64,000 nucleotides of DNA from Alphaproteobacteria bacterium (GTDB lineage Bacteria > Pseudomonadota > Alphaproteobacteria > Micavibrionales > Micavibrionaceae), in the NCBI GenBank assembly GCA_018608245.1, contig JABAZY010000061.1, forward strand, positions 1-64,000, written 5' to 3'. Position 1 is the first letter of the stretch. Each line of letters begins with the position of its first letter. The position numbers were made by a program, and so were the translations under genes. Under the pieces are notes generated by a model that searched no databases, had not been told where the DNA came from, and worked only from the letters and a program-made list of their open reading frames with translations. Positions 15,943 through 21,403 of this stretch are shown here, piece by piece.

Positions 15943-16833
15943 TCATACGTTTACTTCAGTGTCTGCAAGACACCAGGCTAAAATGGCTTTTTGTTCATGG
16001 ACTCTGTTTTCAGCTTCATCGTAGATAACACTAGCAGGAGAGGCGAGGACTTCTTCTGTCACTTCTTCTCCTCTATGGATAGGCATACAATGCGTGAAAA
16101 TTGCACTTTCTTTTGCGAGCGTCATCAGCTTTGAATTGACCTGATAAGATTCAAAAATTTCAATAGCTTTGCCTTCTTGACCCATTGATACCCATGTATC
16201 TGTTACAACAACATCAACGTCCTTAACGGCTTCTTCTGCTGTATCTACAAGATTAGCCCGTTTATCAGCTTTATGTCTTAGCGATTCAGGGACGGCTAAA
16301 GTGAGTTCAAAATCAAATTTTTCTGAAGCTTGAACGAAAGCATGGGCAACATTATTATAATCCCCTAGCCATGCAATTTTTTTACCTGCTATAGGGCCTA
16401 ATTTTTCTTCCATCGTTAAAATGCTCGCCATGATTTGGCAGGGGTGTGAATGATTCGTTAGGCCGTTAATTACAGGGATAGTGGTGTTTTCAGAAAGTTT
16501 TTTGAGTGTTGCATGATCACTCATTCTAATCATGATAGCATCCACAAAACGTGAGAGTACTTGTCCAGTATCTTCTATACTTTCCGCACCAGTCAGTTGG
16601 ATTTCATCCATACTTGTCACAATTGTGTGGCCGCCAAGTTGTTTGAAAGCCACCTCAAAAGAAAATCTTGTCCGCGTAGATTTTTTATCAAAGACCATCG
16701 CAAGTGATAAACCTTTGAATAGTTGAGGCGGATTGAACTTTAATTTTTTTAATTCATGCGCATGTGCCAAAATTTCTTTTAGCGTTTTTGCATCAATATC
16801 GTCAATATTTAGAAAATGATTTATTCCAGGCAT
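15943..16833 (-). CDS. argF: Ornithine carbamoyltransferase
   Basis: Cytosolic step of arginine synthesis: carbamoyl phosphate + ornithine to citrulline. The carbamoyl-phosphate motif STRTRFSFEVA lies near residue 52. HSHPCQIMAS, and HCMPIHRGEEV with the catalytic Cys, follow. The length of 296 residues is slightly short but within the family. The start overlaps the end of argD by 13 bases, so it is probably the last arginine gene of the operon. Confidence 0.95.
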   Translation of the reverse strand: MPGINHFLNIDDIDAKTLKEILAHAHELKKLKFNPPQLFKGLSLAMVFDKKSTRTRFSFEVAFKQLGGHTIVTSMDEIQLTGAESIEDTGQVLSRFVDAIMIRMSDHATLKKLSENTTIPVINGLTNHSHPCQIMASILTMEEKLGPIAGKKIAWLGDYNNVAHAFVQASEKFDFELTLAVPESLRHKADKRANLVDTAEEAVKDVDVVVTDTWVSMGQEGKAIEIFESYQVNSKLMTLAKESAIFTHCMPIHRGEEVTEEVLASPASVIYDEAENRVHEQKAILAWCLADTEVNV

Positions 16834-18050
16834 GGTAAATTATCCGAGGTAATAACAGTTTTGATCTTTTTGATGGCTTCATCAATTTCTGTGTTGGAAA
16901 TAGTTAGAGGAGGCGTCAATCGGAGTGTGTTTTTACCTGCTTGCGTTGCAACCAATCCATTTTCTAGAAGTTCAGCCAATAATTCTTTGATTTGAAATTT
17001 TGTATCAAGACCAATCATTAGACCTTGGCCTTTGATAGCGGTGATGGCATCGCCCGTTTCAGCCTGTAATGCTTCAAGTTGATCATAAAAATAAGCGCTA
17101 GCTTCGCGGACACGCGCTAAAAATTCAGGTTTCACAATTTCACTAACAACATGATAAACAACGTTTGTTGCAAGCGGGTTTCCGCCATAGGTCGTGCCAT
17201 GGTCGCCAGGTTTAAATACGGAGCATACATGATCTTTGGCCATGAACGCGCCAACAGGGAAGCCTCCACCAATACCTTTGGCAAGTGTTATAATGTCAGG
17301 TTCATAGTCAAAATGCGCGTGGGCAAATAATGTTCCCATACGCCCTATACCCGTTTGGATTTCATCAGAAATTAAAATGATATCATTATCGTTACAGAGT
17401 TTTTGTAGGCCTTGTAAAAATTCTGTTGTCCCTGCGGTTAAACCGCCTTCACCCTGAACAGGTTCAACAAGAACGCCACAAATTTTATCTGTGATAAGGG
17501 CTTTGACTGAATCTAAATCATTGAAATCTGCAAAGTGATAGCCGGGTAGGTAAGGGCCAAATTGTGGTTGTGATAATGATTTTTGTGTTCCGCTAACGGC
17601 ACCGTAAGTACGACCGTGGAATGAATTTTTGAAAACAATAAATTCTTTGCAGTCTTCTGAGCGGTTATAGTGCGCATAAGCACGAGCGAGCTTTAACGCA
17701 CCTTCAACGGCTTCAGCACCAGAGTTGCAGAAGAAAATTTTATCAGAACAACAATTGTTAACGAGAAGCTCAGCCGCATTGACTTTAGGCTCATGCGCGA
17801 AAGAGCCTACACACATAGTAAAACCTTTATCTAATTGCTCTTGGACACCCTTATTAAATGCAGGGTGGTTGTGCCCTAAAGAGCTGACGGCAATGCCTGC
17901 TGCGCAATCAAGATACTTGTTACCGTCTGTATCGTATAGGTAACAACCATCTGCTTTTTCCAACGCTATATGTTTATGCGGATATAAGGGCATAATAGAA
18001 TCGTTAGCGCGTTTTTGTAAGGCTTCACCGCTTGAGTTTTTAATGGTCAT
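16821..18050 (-). CDS. argD: Acetylornithine aminotransferase
   Basis: PLP-dependent class III aminotransferase that converts N-acetylglutamate semialdehyde to N-acetylornithine; it may also serve the lysine pathway. The PLP lysine is in ITLAKGIGGGFPVGAF and the cofactor Asp in LISDEIQTGIGRMG. GTTYGGNPLA is also conserved. The protein has 409 residues. An AGGAG lies about eight bases before the ATG. It is located 15 bp after argB. Confidence 0.96.
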   Translation of the reverse strand: MTIKNSSGEALQKRANDSIMPLYPHKHIALEKADGCYLYDTDGNKYLDCAAGIAVSSLGHNHPAFNKGVQEQLDKGFTMCVGSFAHEPKVNAAELLVNNCCSDKIFFCNSGAEAVEGALKLARAYAHYNRSEDCKEFIVFKNSFHGRTYGAVSGTQKSLSQPQFGPYLPGYHFADFNDLDSVKALITDKICGVLVEPVQGEGGLTAGTTEFLQGLQKLCNDNDIILISDEIQTGIGRMGTLFAHAHFDYEPDIITLAKGIGGGFPVGAFMAKDHVCSVFKPGDHGTTYGGNPLATNVVYHVVSEIVKPEFLARVREASAYFYDQLEALQAETGDAITAIKGQGLMIGLDTKFQIKELLAELLENGLVATQAGKNTLRLTPPLTISNTEIDEAIKKIKTVITSDNLPCLE

Positions 18051-18065
18051 TATATTTCTCCTAAA

Positions 18066-18932
18066 CTATTTTTTGCTTAATTCTTTTTGATAATTTTCTT
18101 TTTCGCTTTCACGAATAATCATGGTGCCCATACCTTCAGAGGTATAAATTTCATTGCGTAGAGCATCTTCTTTAAAGCCGTTTAAAATATGGACACGTTT
18201 TACACCGTTGCGTAGTGCATCGACACAATTTTCTAGTTTTACGCGCATACCATCTTTAACAGTTCCATCTGTAATCAGTTCTTCAATTTGACGAGCTGTT
18301 AAATATGATTGAACTTTACCATCCGCCATCACACCATCAATATCAGTGAGTAGAATTAGTTTGTTAGCTTTCGTCTCGCTAGCTAGTTGGATGGCTACAT
18401 TATCTGCATTGATATTTAGCGCTGTGCCGTCTTCTGAGAAGGCGAGGCAGGGGCAGACAGCTAGATCAGTGGCCGAGAAATGCTCCCGAATAGCGTCGCT
18501 ATCAATTTTTTCTAATGTGCCATCAAAACGCACTATATCACCTTCGTTAGGACGTCTTTTAGCTGTTGTCCAGTGCGGAGGAAGAGCGTTTAAGACTGTA
18601 GAGGGAAGTCTTGCTTTTACTAAGCTTTCGGATAATTTAAACCCTAAATCGCCGGTCAAGGTTTTCTTGATGATTTTGATATCATCGGCAGAAGAAATTC
18701 TACGCCCGTCAATTTTAAACGGTTCAAGTCCGGCTTCTTTCATCGCAATATCAATTGACTCACCACCGCCATAGATAAGCAGGATTTTGATGCCGTCATT
18801 GGTTAGCTCTTGGATATTCGCAATTAAATTTTCGCGGGCACCCTTGTCTGTAATGATACGACCACCAGCCTTTACAACAAAGAGCTGTCCTTGGAATAAA
18901 TTACGATAGAATTTTTTAAACGAATTTATCAT
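18066..18932 (-). CDS. argB: Acetylglutamate kinase (divergent)
   Basis: Amino-acid kinase fold enzyme that phosphorylates N-acetylglutamate. The N-terminal Lys-Gly motif reads FVVKAGGRIITD and the substrate loop LLIYGGGESID; common enzymes have K-(Y/L)-GG and HGGGP there. LLTDIDGVMADG and NINADNVA are the usual C-terminal motifs. At 288 residues the length is standard. The departures in the N-terminal glycine loops place it away from the classical E. coli form, possibly nearer the kinases associated with GNAT-type synthases. The identification rests on these motifs plus the argC/argD/argF context. Confidence 0.88.
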   Translation of the reverse strand: MINSFKKFYRNLFQGQLFVVKAGGRIITDKGARENLIANIQELTNDGIKILLIYGGGESIDIAMKEAGLEPFKIDGRRISSADDIKIIKKTLTGDLGFKLSESLVKARLPSTVLNALPPHWTTAKRRPNEGDIVRFDGTLEKIDSDAIREHFSATDLAVCPCLAFSEDGTALNINADNVAIQLASETKANKLILLTDIDGVMADGKVQSYLTARQIEELITDGTVKDGMRVKLENCVDALRNGVKRVHILNGFKEDALRNEIYTSEGMGTMIIRESEKENYQKELSKK

Positions 18933-18937
18933 AGCGC

Positions 18938-19933
18938 TTACGGATAAATTGGACTGTTAAATTGAAGGCCGAGTGTTTCATCAAGACCAAACATAATATT
19001 CATATTTTGAATGGCGGTCCCTGATGCACCACGGAGTAAATTATCTAACGCACCTTGAGCAATGATTTCGCCGTTATTACCTTGAGTATAATTCAAATCA
19101 ACGAAGTTTGTGCTGACGACATTCGTGAGTTCGACCTTATCAACGACACGCACGAAAGGATGGTTGTTGAATACGCTTAAATTTGCGGATGAGTCTGACT
19201 TAATAAAGCCATTGGCAAAGATACCCCGCAGGAAGGGCCCTACAGTGGGCGCGAAGTTCAGTTGTTTTTCGTCAAGTCCGCTTGTTGCCAAAATCTCTGG
19301 GGTATGGCGGTGATTATTGACCAGATAACTTCTGATATTTTGCGAGCAGAAGGGGTGATCGACAGGGTCACGGGCACTACGTCCACCTCCAGATGTACCA
19401 GAAATAGCAATAACATCGGCACCGTCCATTTTATCTTTGAAGGGTAGCAATAATAATTGAACTAAGAGTGCAAAGCACCCTGGGTTTGCGACGGCATCGG
19501 CTTTGGCGATTTGATCTCTGTAGATTTCAGGGAGACCATAGACAAAACGCCCATCTAATAATTCTGGATGATGATGTTCGATATTGTAATAACGCTCATA
19601 AGTTTCTTTGTCGCTTAATCTAAAATCAGCAGAGAAATCTATGATTTTGGTTTTACCCAAAAAGCTAGGGGCAACTTCTTGTGCAGCCTTGTGTGGTAGA
19701 CATAAGAAAACAACATCACTGTCGTTAGCCACAGTGTCGTGGGCTGTGTTTGTAATGTTTAATCCTTCAATATGACTCAATCTTGGGAATAATTCGGATA
19801 GAGGTGTGCCCTCATGTTGGCGAGATACAAGATATTTAAGCTCAATTTCAGGGTGTTGAAGTAGACAACGTAATAACTCTGTGCCTGTGTAGCCAGTGAC
19901 GCCGATAATTGATACTTTGATTTTGTTACTCAT
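18938..19933 (-). CDS. argC: N-acetyl-gamma-glutamyl-phosphate reductase
   Basis: NADPH-dependent reduction of N-acetylglutamyl phosphate to the semialdehyde. The Rossmann N-terminus is SIIGVTGYTGTELLRCL. The catalytic Cys is in VANPGCFALLVQ, and SGTSGGGRSA and HRHTPEI follow. The 331-residue length is typical. Its start lies 18 bp after the GNAT gene and it ends five bases before argB, consistent with one operon. Confidence 0.96.
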   Translation of the reverse strand: MSNKIKVSIIGVTGYTGTELLRCLLQHPEIELKYLVSRQHEGTPLSELFPRLSHIEGLNITNTAHDTVANDSDVVFLCLPHKAAQEVAPSFLGKTKIIDFSADFRLSDKETYERYYNIEHHHPELLDGRFVYGLPEIYRDQIAKADAVANPGCFALLVQLLLLPFKDKMDGADVIAISGTSGGGRSARDPVDHPFCSQNIRSYLVNNHRHTPEILATSGLDEKQLNFAPTVGPFLRGIFANGFIKSDSSANLSVFNNHPFVRVVDKVELTNVVSTNFVDLNYTQGNNGEIIAQGALDNLLRGASGTAIQNMNIMFGLDETLGLQFNSPIYP

Positions 19934-19951: not shown

Positions 19952-20611
19952 TTATTGTAAGGCTAAGGGTATAGCTATTTGGGGTGTTGGGGCAATAGGT
20001 GACGGCATTATTGTCACAGCAGGTTCAGGTTGTTCAATTGGAAGATTAAAGAAAACTGAGGCGTAGTCATCTTCTGCCAAAAGTGTTGGCATGCCAGCAG
20101 TGTAGCCTTGATTGATAAAAAGGGCGTGGCTACCCATATTTTGTGCACCAACCTTGGCGATGATTTGGCTAATACCTGCTTCTTTCGCTATAAGTTCAGC
20201 TTGTTTGAATAATATATCGTATGGTTTTACGGCTTCGCTCATATGGGTATATTGCTTAGGTCTATAATCTGGGTGAATGACCACAGATTGAATAACAGCC
20301 ATTCCTTCAGTGATGGGATATCCCTCTAGATTTATCGTCGCAGGATTAGCAGGATCTGTTGTGAGTAATAAATGAGCGATATGATTGCCGTAATTATCCT
20401 TAATGCCAATAATCGGCATGTCTGCATCCAAATGAGCTTTTAAATCTTCAATCGTTCTTGGCTTCAGCCGATGTTTTTTGTCTTCTGGAAGATCCTCAAT
20501 GACTTGGTCTTGAAGTGTAATGAGATGAGGTAAATCATCTTCGTTAAGTACATAGCAGGCGTAAGGCGTGCCGTAAGAGGGGTTATTAAATACATTCATT
20601 TCGTAGCTCAT
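19952..20611 (-). CDS. GNAT-like acetyltransferase, first gene of the arginine operon
   Basis: The 219-residue protein has a GNAT-like order of strands. VIQSVVIHPDYRPKQYTHMS matches the beta4/acetyl-CoA loop region, and AKVGAQNMGSHALFINQGY the beta5-alpha4-end helix typical of the fold. A Pro-rich tail (EQPEPAVTIMPSPIAPT) ends it. The canonical R/Q-x-x-G-x-G/A loop is degenerate. No argA or argJ is visible in the operon, so it could be a short N-acetylglutamate synthase, but that is inference from position only. The start ATG 20611 has a weak ribosome site. Confidence 0.7.
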   Translation of the reverse strand: MSYEMNVFNNPSYGTPYACYVLNEDDLPHLITLQDQVIEDLPEDKKHRLKPRTIEDLKAHLDADMPIIGIKDNYGNHIAHLLLTTDPANPATINLEGYPITEGMAVIQSVVIHPDYRPKQYTHMSEAVKPYDILFKQAELIAKEAGISQIIAKVGAQNMGSHALFINQGYTAGMPTLLAEDDYASVFFNLPIEQPEPAVTIMPSPIAPTPQIAIPLALQ

Positions 20612-20614
20612 TAA

Positions 20615-20745
20615 ACATAGTCGAAGCCCAAGCGCCTTTGTGTAAAGGTCTTATGATTGATCGCTATTCTAGAAATGAAAGAGTGATAGAGGGGCTTAAA
20701 AACTAAACACACGTAACATATTAGCGATCAGCTAATACGTCGTCG
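20615..20745 (-). promoter_or_regulatory. Candidate arginine attenuator with alternative hairpins
   Basis: In the leader RNA, 20741-20731 (including the Arg codons and TATTAGC) pairs with 20725-20715 in an 11-bp stem with two G-U pairs. The loop and right arm, TGATCGCTA (20730-20722), can instead pair perfectly over nine bases with TAGCGATCA (20666-20658). The two folds exclude each other. A U-rich stretch (TTTAGTTTTT, 20707-20698) follows the first hairpin. A further possible pair, AAGCCC (20697-20692) with GGGCTT (20629-20624), lies just before the GNAT start. The structures are read by eye, not computed. Confidence 0.5.
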
Positions 20746-20772
20746 GCTTTGATATGTGCAGTTCTTATCCAT
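20728..20772 (-). CDS. Candidate arginine leader peptide (14 codons, Arg-Arg-Arg)
   Basis: ATG 20772-20770 opens a 14-codon ORF, MDKNCTYQSRRRIS, ending at TGA 20730-20728. Three consecutive Arg codons (CGA CGA CGT) lie at 20745-20737, directly on the left arm of the first leader hairpin. There is no Shine-Dalgarno sequence. The -10 element ends only seven to eight bases upstream, so the A of ATG may be the transcription start, a leaderless arrangement. The Sinorhizobium trpL leader peptide is a known leaderless precedent. Its place before an arginine operon is what makes it credible. Confidence 0.5.
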   Translation of the reverse strand: MDKNCTYQSRRRIS

Positions 20773-20778
20773 AAGCTA

Positions 20779-20808
20779 GTTATAAGTGTTTTTTGGAAAA
20801 TTTGTCAA
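20779..20808 (-). promoter_or_regulatory. Promoter of the GNAT-argCBDF operon
   Basis: Minus-strand TTGACA (20808-20803), a 17-bp spacer and TTATAA (20785-20780), or TATAAC with spacing 18. This predicts a start at about 20773-20772 and a leader of roughly 160 bases before the GNAT start codon. Confidence 0.65.
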
Positions 20809-20830: not shown

Positions 20831-21403
20831 TTAAATCGTCTTTTTATGTGGAGTAAATTCGCCATAGAAAATGTTATTTCTAAGCATGGTAAAAACTCTT
20901 GGAAATCCATACTCTATTTCAAAATATATTTTTTGATTCTTATCTTTTGTCTTTTTTGAGTATGTGGCTACTTTTCTAATAGAATTAATTGGAGGAATAG
21001 GTCTGTCATAACAGCAAACATCTATATCCAATATCCGTAATAAATATTGGAGTTCAAATGTTTTTTGATTACTAGAAATGCCCTTTATTGGTATTGTGAC
21101 TTCATAAGTAAGGGTGGCGCTACTATGAGATTTAATGTTATCTGGAACTTCAATTTTAATTAATTTACCAATAAAGAAAACTTCTCTTTGTAAATAAAGC
21201 TCATATTCAGTGATGGTTGGCCCAAAATACGTAGCTTTTCCAGTCGTTTTTTTCATGTCATTGATTATTTTTTCGGCTTCAATAATGTCTTGTTTTGGAA
21301 TTTTGATATGAATTATATACAGCCAGCTTAAAATAATTACAGATATAGAAAGCGCTAATAAAAAAAATATTTTCGTATTAAATTTTATTTTTTTATCACT
21401 CAT
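20831..21403 (-). CDS. Hypothetical membrane-anchored protein
   Basis: The 190-residue protein has a basic N-terminus, one membrane segment (IFFLLALSISVIILSWLYII, residues ~12-32) and a periplasmic-side domain of beta-rich character. It is AT-rich. I recognise no family. It lies seven bases after yejE on the same strand, so it may be read from the yejE transcript, and it sits immediately upstream of the arginine promoter. Confidence 0.6.
   Translation of the reverse strand: MSDKKIKFNTKIFFLLALSISVIILSWLYIIHIKIPKQDIIEAEKIINDMKKTTGKATYFGPTITEYELYLQREVFFIGKLIKIEVPDNIKSHSSATLTYEVTIPIKGISSNQKTFELQYLLRILDIDVCCYDRPIPPINSIRKVATYSKKTKDKNQKIYFEIEYGFPRVFTMLRNNIFYGEFTPHKKTI

Follow-up and report, generated by a model that had tools for sequence, protein, structure and literature searches.

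A putative leaderless arginine leader peptide and attenuator in front of the arginine-synthesis genes of an alphaproteobacterial family

The arginine-synthesis operon described here is probably preceded by a ribosome-mediated attenuator that responds to arginine and has a leaderless leader peptide. The window, i.e. the whole stretch of 64,000 nt that was analysed, derives from a genome of 2.02 Mb in 72 contigs, from an alphaproteobacterial family. Control of the operon by attenuation through an Arg leader peptide was proposed in a preliminary description of this DNA, and that proposal is supported by a conserved ORF, a covarying helix and the geometry of the promoter. The leaders of the trp, his, leu, ilv, thr and phe operons are ribosome-mediated attenuators. 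Arginine genes do not belong to this classical set, and their control is usually ascribed to ArgR.

The features of the leader and of the genes behind it are listed in Table 1. Three segments of the leader RNA are distinguished: A, the region of the Arg codons and the stop codon; B, at or just after the stop codon; and C, about 50 nt further on.

Table 1. Features of the putative leader and the genes downstream of it (positions in the window)
Feature	Positions	Strand	Basis or remark
-35 box TTGACA	20803..20808	-	sequence; 37/38 leaders have a TTGACA-like box 35-37 nt upstream of their ATG
-10 box TTATAA	20780..20785	-	17 bp from the -35 box; relatives T-rich at -13 to -10
Leader ORF MDKNCTYQSRRRIS + TGA	20728..20772	-	Arg-rich ORFs in the equivalent place in 38 family genomes
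Candidate regulatory codons CGA CGA CGT	20737..20745	-	CGA rare in window ORFs, common in leaders
A:B near hairpin	20715..20741	-	GACGTATTAGC (20741-20731) with GCTAATATGTT (20725-20715), 11 pairs, dG -11.6
Segment B (stop codon + next 6 nt)	20722..20730	-	TGATCGCTA (20730-20722); common to both alternative structures
Possible termination region, U-run TTTTT	20698..20702	-	12 nt past the A:B hairpin
Segment C	20658..20666	-	TAGCGATCA (20666-20658); perfect 9-base pairing with B; equivalent helix covaries in relatives
GNAT-like acetyltransferase ORF, first gene after the leader	19952..20611	-	weak Pfam match, PF00583, E 0.0016
argC	18938..19933	-	TIGR01850
argB	18066..18932	-	TIGR00761
argD	16821..18050	-	TIGR00707
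argF	15943..16833	-	TIGR00658

On the minus strand of the window, the -10 box is followed after 7 nt by the ATG of the leader ORF (20772-20770). The promoter of the form TTGACA-17-TTATAA, with an Arg-codon ORF ending in TGA behind it, was confirmed to the base, and both the 11-bp hairpin and the nine-base alternative pairing of the preliminary description are present in the sequence. Its reading of the genes downstream as an arginine-synthesis operon was borne out by TIGR profile matches for argC, argB, argD and argF. The ORF with the Arg run stands upstream of genes that make arginine, as in a ribosome-mediated attenuator.

The GNAT ORF represents an insertion relative to the loci of genus mates. 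It may encode an N-acetylglutamate synthase, a role that is possible because ArgJ is missing from the window's own genus. Homologues of this ORF in G012, G013, G042 and G044 also lie behind Arg leaders (MKTRAFLSRRRTN, MNKMAFNIRRRTC, MIDMAHSIICSQRRRTA and MNSCMHHIAATRRRTI), with a weaker promoter box in two of them; a full argC was not found in these four genomes. No GNAT domain fused to argB was found in the four genomes with a readable argB. The gene order of the window was also observed in another genus, where the leader MSMRTARLLRRR of G049 (L047/L021) is followed by a GNAT-like gene and then argC. An ORF of 190 aa (20831-21403), absent from the genus-mate loci and giving no Pfam or NCBIfam match, separates the leader of the window from the permease gene.

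Conservation of the Arg codons in relatives had been set beforehand as a check on the proposal. Of about 51 family genomes in which argC is present, 38 contain an ORF of 10-21 codons with an Arg run towards its end, located before argC or before the gene that precedes argC. In most genus mates both the 190-aa ORF and the GNAT ORF are absent, and an ABC-transporter permease gene is followed by about 210 nt and then argC; each of these loci has a leader, the peptides reading MNNNTNRRRRR, MNIANVQNRRRRRN, MNTVSTLGTLPRRRRT, MNTNTNRRRPR, MDLDTTQLRRQRRK and MNTRNAQRRRRRLK. More distant genera, with argC identity as low as about 53-58%, have the leader (e.g. MNNFVASPSRRRPR and MKNLVVTVTPRRRPR) about 1.2 kb ahead of argC, in front of a gene for a protein of ~345 aa. 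In many genera of the family this ~345-aa protein (L058:458-1492) is encoded in the interval from leader to argC; its only match was to CbiA, with an E value of 0.055. One leader is degenerate (AGA AGA ... CGA, in G028), and one further leader, beyond the 38, was found in G024 on a contig separate from argC. In about 13 argC-bearing family genomes no leader was seen upstream of argC in the stretch examined, which in some was limited by contig ends, and none was seen in four argC-bearing genomes from another family of the same order.

It is apparent from a scan that this arrangement is far above the level expected by chance. An Arg-run ORF with a promoter box at exactly 35-37 nt was found at 33 of 60 loci upstream of argC, compared with 0.5 (maximum 2) in resampled sequence. 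The same scan gave one Arg match on the other strand or elsewhere, and runs of other amino acids with the same promoter spacing were found at three loci at most. A DNA-level search with the leader gave no match in relatives, and conservation is visible only by comparison guided by ORF and structure. When the genus was searched by pattern for further poly-Arg leaders, those of argC were the only convincing cases; one weak candidate was found among the argG loci, in L212. A scan for argC in the contigs of named genomes returned mostly distant argC genes and one genus mate (L063).

The distance from the start of the TTGACA-like box to the ATG is 36 nt in 26 leaders, 37 nt in seven and 35 nt in four. 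In 37 of the 38 leaders the ATG is preceded by a C or a T, and transcription that starts at an A usually has such a pyrimidine at -1. Both observations fit initiation at the A of the ATG, as had been expected for the window, and because of this spacing and this pyrimidine the mRNAs are predicted to be leaderless; in the window the transcript would be expected to start at 20772. In G009 (L036) the start codon of the leader and the stop codon of the gene ahead of it overlap (ATGA), and there is no TTGACA box, but the Arg run is retained; this leader is apparently coupled rather than leaderless.

The codons of the run are also unusual. CGA accounts for 4.3% of the Arg codons in the long ORFs of the window, as against 50% of those in the leaders, and 28 of the 38 Arg runs open with it. 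Rare CGA codons slow ribosomes, and this slowing may be relevant to the function of the leader.

The two alternative structures of the window share segment B. The left arm of the A:B hairpin begins at the second Arg codon and ends with the last sense codon. Taken by itself, the window gives no significant signal, in that the fold of its whole leader had a z score of -1.17 and its downstream duplex was no better than shuffles (p 0.68). An outer stem in the window's own genus, between the 5' part of the ORF and TTTGTGC after B, was attractive but not significant, and was rejected.

The comparison of relatives is more informative. When 14 distant leaders were aligned with MAFFT without guidance, the B:C helix was the only one predicted by RNAalifold, with compensatory double changes in five of its nine pairs. 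Counting of pairs gave 26 double-change cells versus 9.9 in shuffles, and the covariation was matched in none of 500 shuffles. The proportion of paired cells fell from 84% to 51% or less once the partner was slid by one column, and self pairs were stronger than cross pairs between genomes. The B:C helix is also found in the window's own genus, the pairing listed in Table 1 being the window's version. The A:B hairpin, comprising the last Arg codons, the stop codon and the bases that follow, recurs in most leaders; in part of the window's genus, A lies just after the stop codon and not on the Arg codons. Thus, of the competing stems anticipated to covary, B:C does so as a family-wide helix and A:B is found as a recurrent hairpin that shares segment B, and two mutually exclusive structures are kept in relatives.

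The effect of a ribosome on this choice was calculated with a partition-function model. Over 37 leaders, expected pairs in the A:B region fell from 8.3 to 6.4 with the ribosome on the first Arg codon and to 1.5 with it on the last, and B:C pairs rose from 8.0 to 13.4 with the ribosome on the Arg codons. For the window itself, with the first Arg codon occupied, expected B:C pairs rose from 0.2 to 9.8. Several relatives favour B:C at full length even when no ribosome is present, so the choice of structure would have to be kinetic.

These observations suggest the following sequence of events. Transcription would begin at the A of the leader ATG, as the promoter geometry indicates, and a ribosome would load directly on the 5' end of the mRNA and translate the leader peptide. 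When Arg-tRNA is plentiful, the ribosome would finish and depart, A would pair with B, and RNA polymerase would halt in the U-rich stretch behind the hairpin. When charged Arg-tRNA is short, the ribosome would stall on the rare codons CGA CGA CGT and mask A; B would then pair with C, A:B would be blocked, and GNAT-argCBDF would be transcribed. The preliminary description is thereby refined, since the data from relatives support A:B as a terminator-like hairpin and B:C as an anti-terminator.

In relatives the fraction of U at offsets 3-10 after A:B is 0.48-0.73, and clear U-runs follow the terminator-like hairpins in several genera (e.g. L051, L058 and L148). In the window's genus the tract is GU-rich, and an intrinsic terminator would be weak in the window because its U-run lies 12 nt beyond the hairpin. 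Evidence for intrinsic termination is good in several relatives; in the window such termination is doubtful. The most serious alternative keeps the Arg-sensing leader but replaces the intrinsic terminator by termination through Rho, by an effect on RNA stability or by control of translation of the first gene. Such an output would accord with the window and its genus, where the hairpin is not immediately followed by a strong U-tract, and it has precedents: translation and Arg codons in Salmonella orf34 work via Rho and RNase G (PMC6386406), and an earlier comparative study, in its treatment of the mycobacterial cys leaders, found no conserved terminator hairpins (PMC1262725). It is, however, at odds with the family-wide enrichment of U-tracts behind A:B and with the terminator-like hairpins named above, and for translation in particular, most leaders have C at a good distance upstream of the gene start, with no sequestration of a ribosome site apparent by eye. 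An output of this kind is rated as a possibility of minor but real weight.

It could also be supposed that the peptide or its short RNA works in trans, the proposal made for peTrpL and rnTrpL of Sinorhizobium (PMC7298713), any effect in cis being secondary. A short leaderless mRNA would indeed arise, but the Arg run is the only conserved part of the peptide and the remainder varies freely, unlike a functional peptide; action in trans is thus improbable. In many bacteria the arg genes are commonly regulated by ArgR, and control by ArgR at the promoter would render the leader incidental. This explanation, more improbable still, is contradicted by the search for ArgR (PF01316), which gave no match above the cutoff in any of 104 family genomes, compared with matches in nine of 14 control genomes. 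Coincidence of a promoter, an Arg-rich ORF and hairpins, for which the non-significance of the window sequence on its own might be cited, is refuted by the conservation in 38 genomes, the covariation and the codon bias, and can be dismissed. In a search of Rfam, no match to a riboswitch, T-box or described attenuator leader was obtained above the gathering score.

For the wider occurrence of the leader type, 385 alphaproteobacterial genomes were covered by a specific pattern scan and a scan anchored on GNAT genes. Poly-Arg promoter-proximal leaders were found roughly 150-210 nt before GNAT genes in families f94, f22, f138, f135 and others. Of 110 GNAT upstream regions, 17 carried a leader (16 by the scan, plus that of G431, whose region is cut off), versus 2.45 expected (maximum 7). 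In G340, as judged by eye, TTCGTCG, with TTTTT after it, can pair with the Arg codons CGACGACG, and the more distal AACCGACGAA is able to pair with that TTCGTCG arm, following the A/B/C logic. Short poly-Arg promoter-proximal ORFs were noted in other families before YhbS-like GNAT genes (L248, L249, L250, L255, L256, L275, L304 and L329). Judged by these sequence comparisons, the leader type is more than a feature of arg operons, and also precedes GNAT genes in other genomes. Somewhat favoured, on balance, is the broader proposition that arginine-sensing leaderless attenuators are widespread in Alphaproteobacteria and replace ArgR, with the Arg codons forming one arm of the terminator, and control arg operons in this family and GNAT genes in several others.

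The putative attenuator resembles those of the trp/his type in having an ORF with end-product codons directly before the operon, exclusive hairpins and ribosome stalling as the presumed sensor. It differs in being specific for arginine and leaderless, and in that, for most leaders, the terminator-like hairpin has the regulatory and stop codons as its 5' arm (A/B/C rather than 1-2-3-4). The trpL leader of Sinorhizobium meliloti, with its 5' end at the ATG (PMC7298713), is likewise alphaproteobacterial, leaderless and 14 codons long, but concerns tryptophan and a different operon. Leaderless short poly-Cys ORFs of mycobacteria, which control downstream genes (Canestrari et al. 2020, as cited in PMC9031893), share the leaderless start and the consecutive codons for one amino acid, but are specific for cysteine and occur in Actinobacteria. 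The orf34 leader of Salmonella speF contains consecutive Arg codons, and when arginine is low, ribosome pausing at them switches the RNA to an alternative fold (PMC6386406). It controls ornithine decarboxylase, an enzyme of polyamine synthesis, and not an arginine-synthesis operon; furthermore, its start codon is at nt 32 with a Shine-Dalgarno sequence, and it operates through Rho and RNase G, as mentioned above. An actinobacterial survey describes, in the relevant part, attenuators of Trp, Cys, Leu and Ilv genes and none for arginine (PMC1262725). No report of an arginine-synthesis attenuator was found in the literature covered; the surveys of Vitreschak 2004 and Lopatovskaya 2010 lie outside that coverage, and a prior mention is possible.

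A family that lacks ArgR and conserves a leaderless poly-Arg leader would show attenuation taking over the arginine pathway, and the arrangement would be simple, the sensing codons being themselves part of the terminator. The combination of promoter, 36 nt, ATG and CGA run provides a sequence handle that predicts GNAT genes which may belong to arginine metabolism. If the broader proposition is true, the GNAT genes behind such leaders would encode unrecognised enzymes of the arginine pathway.
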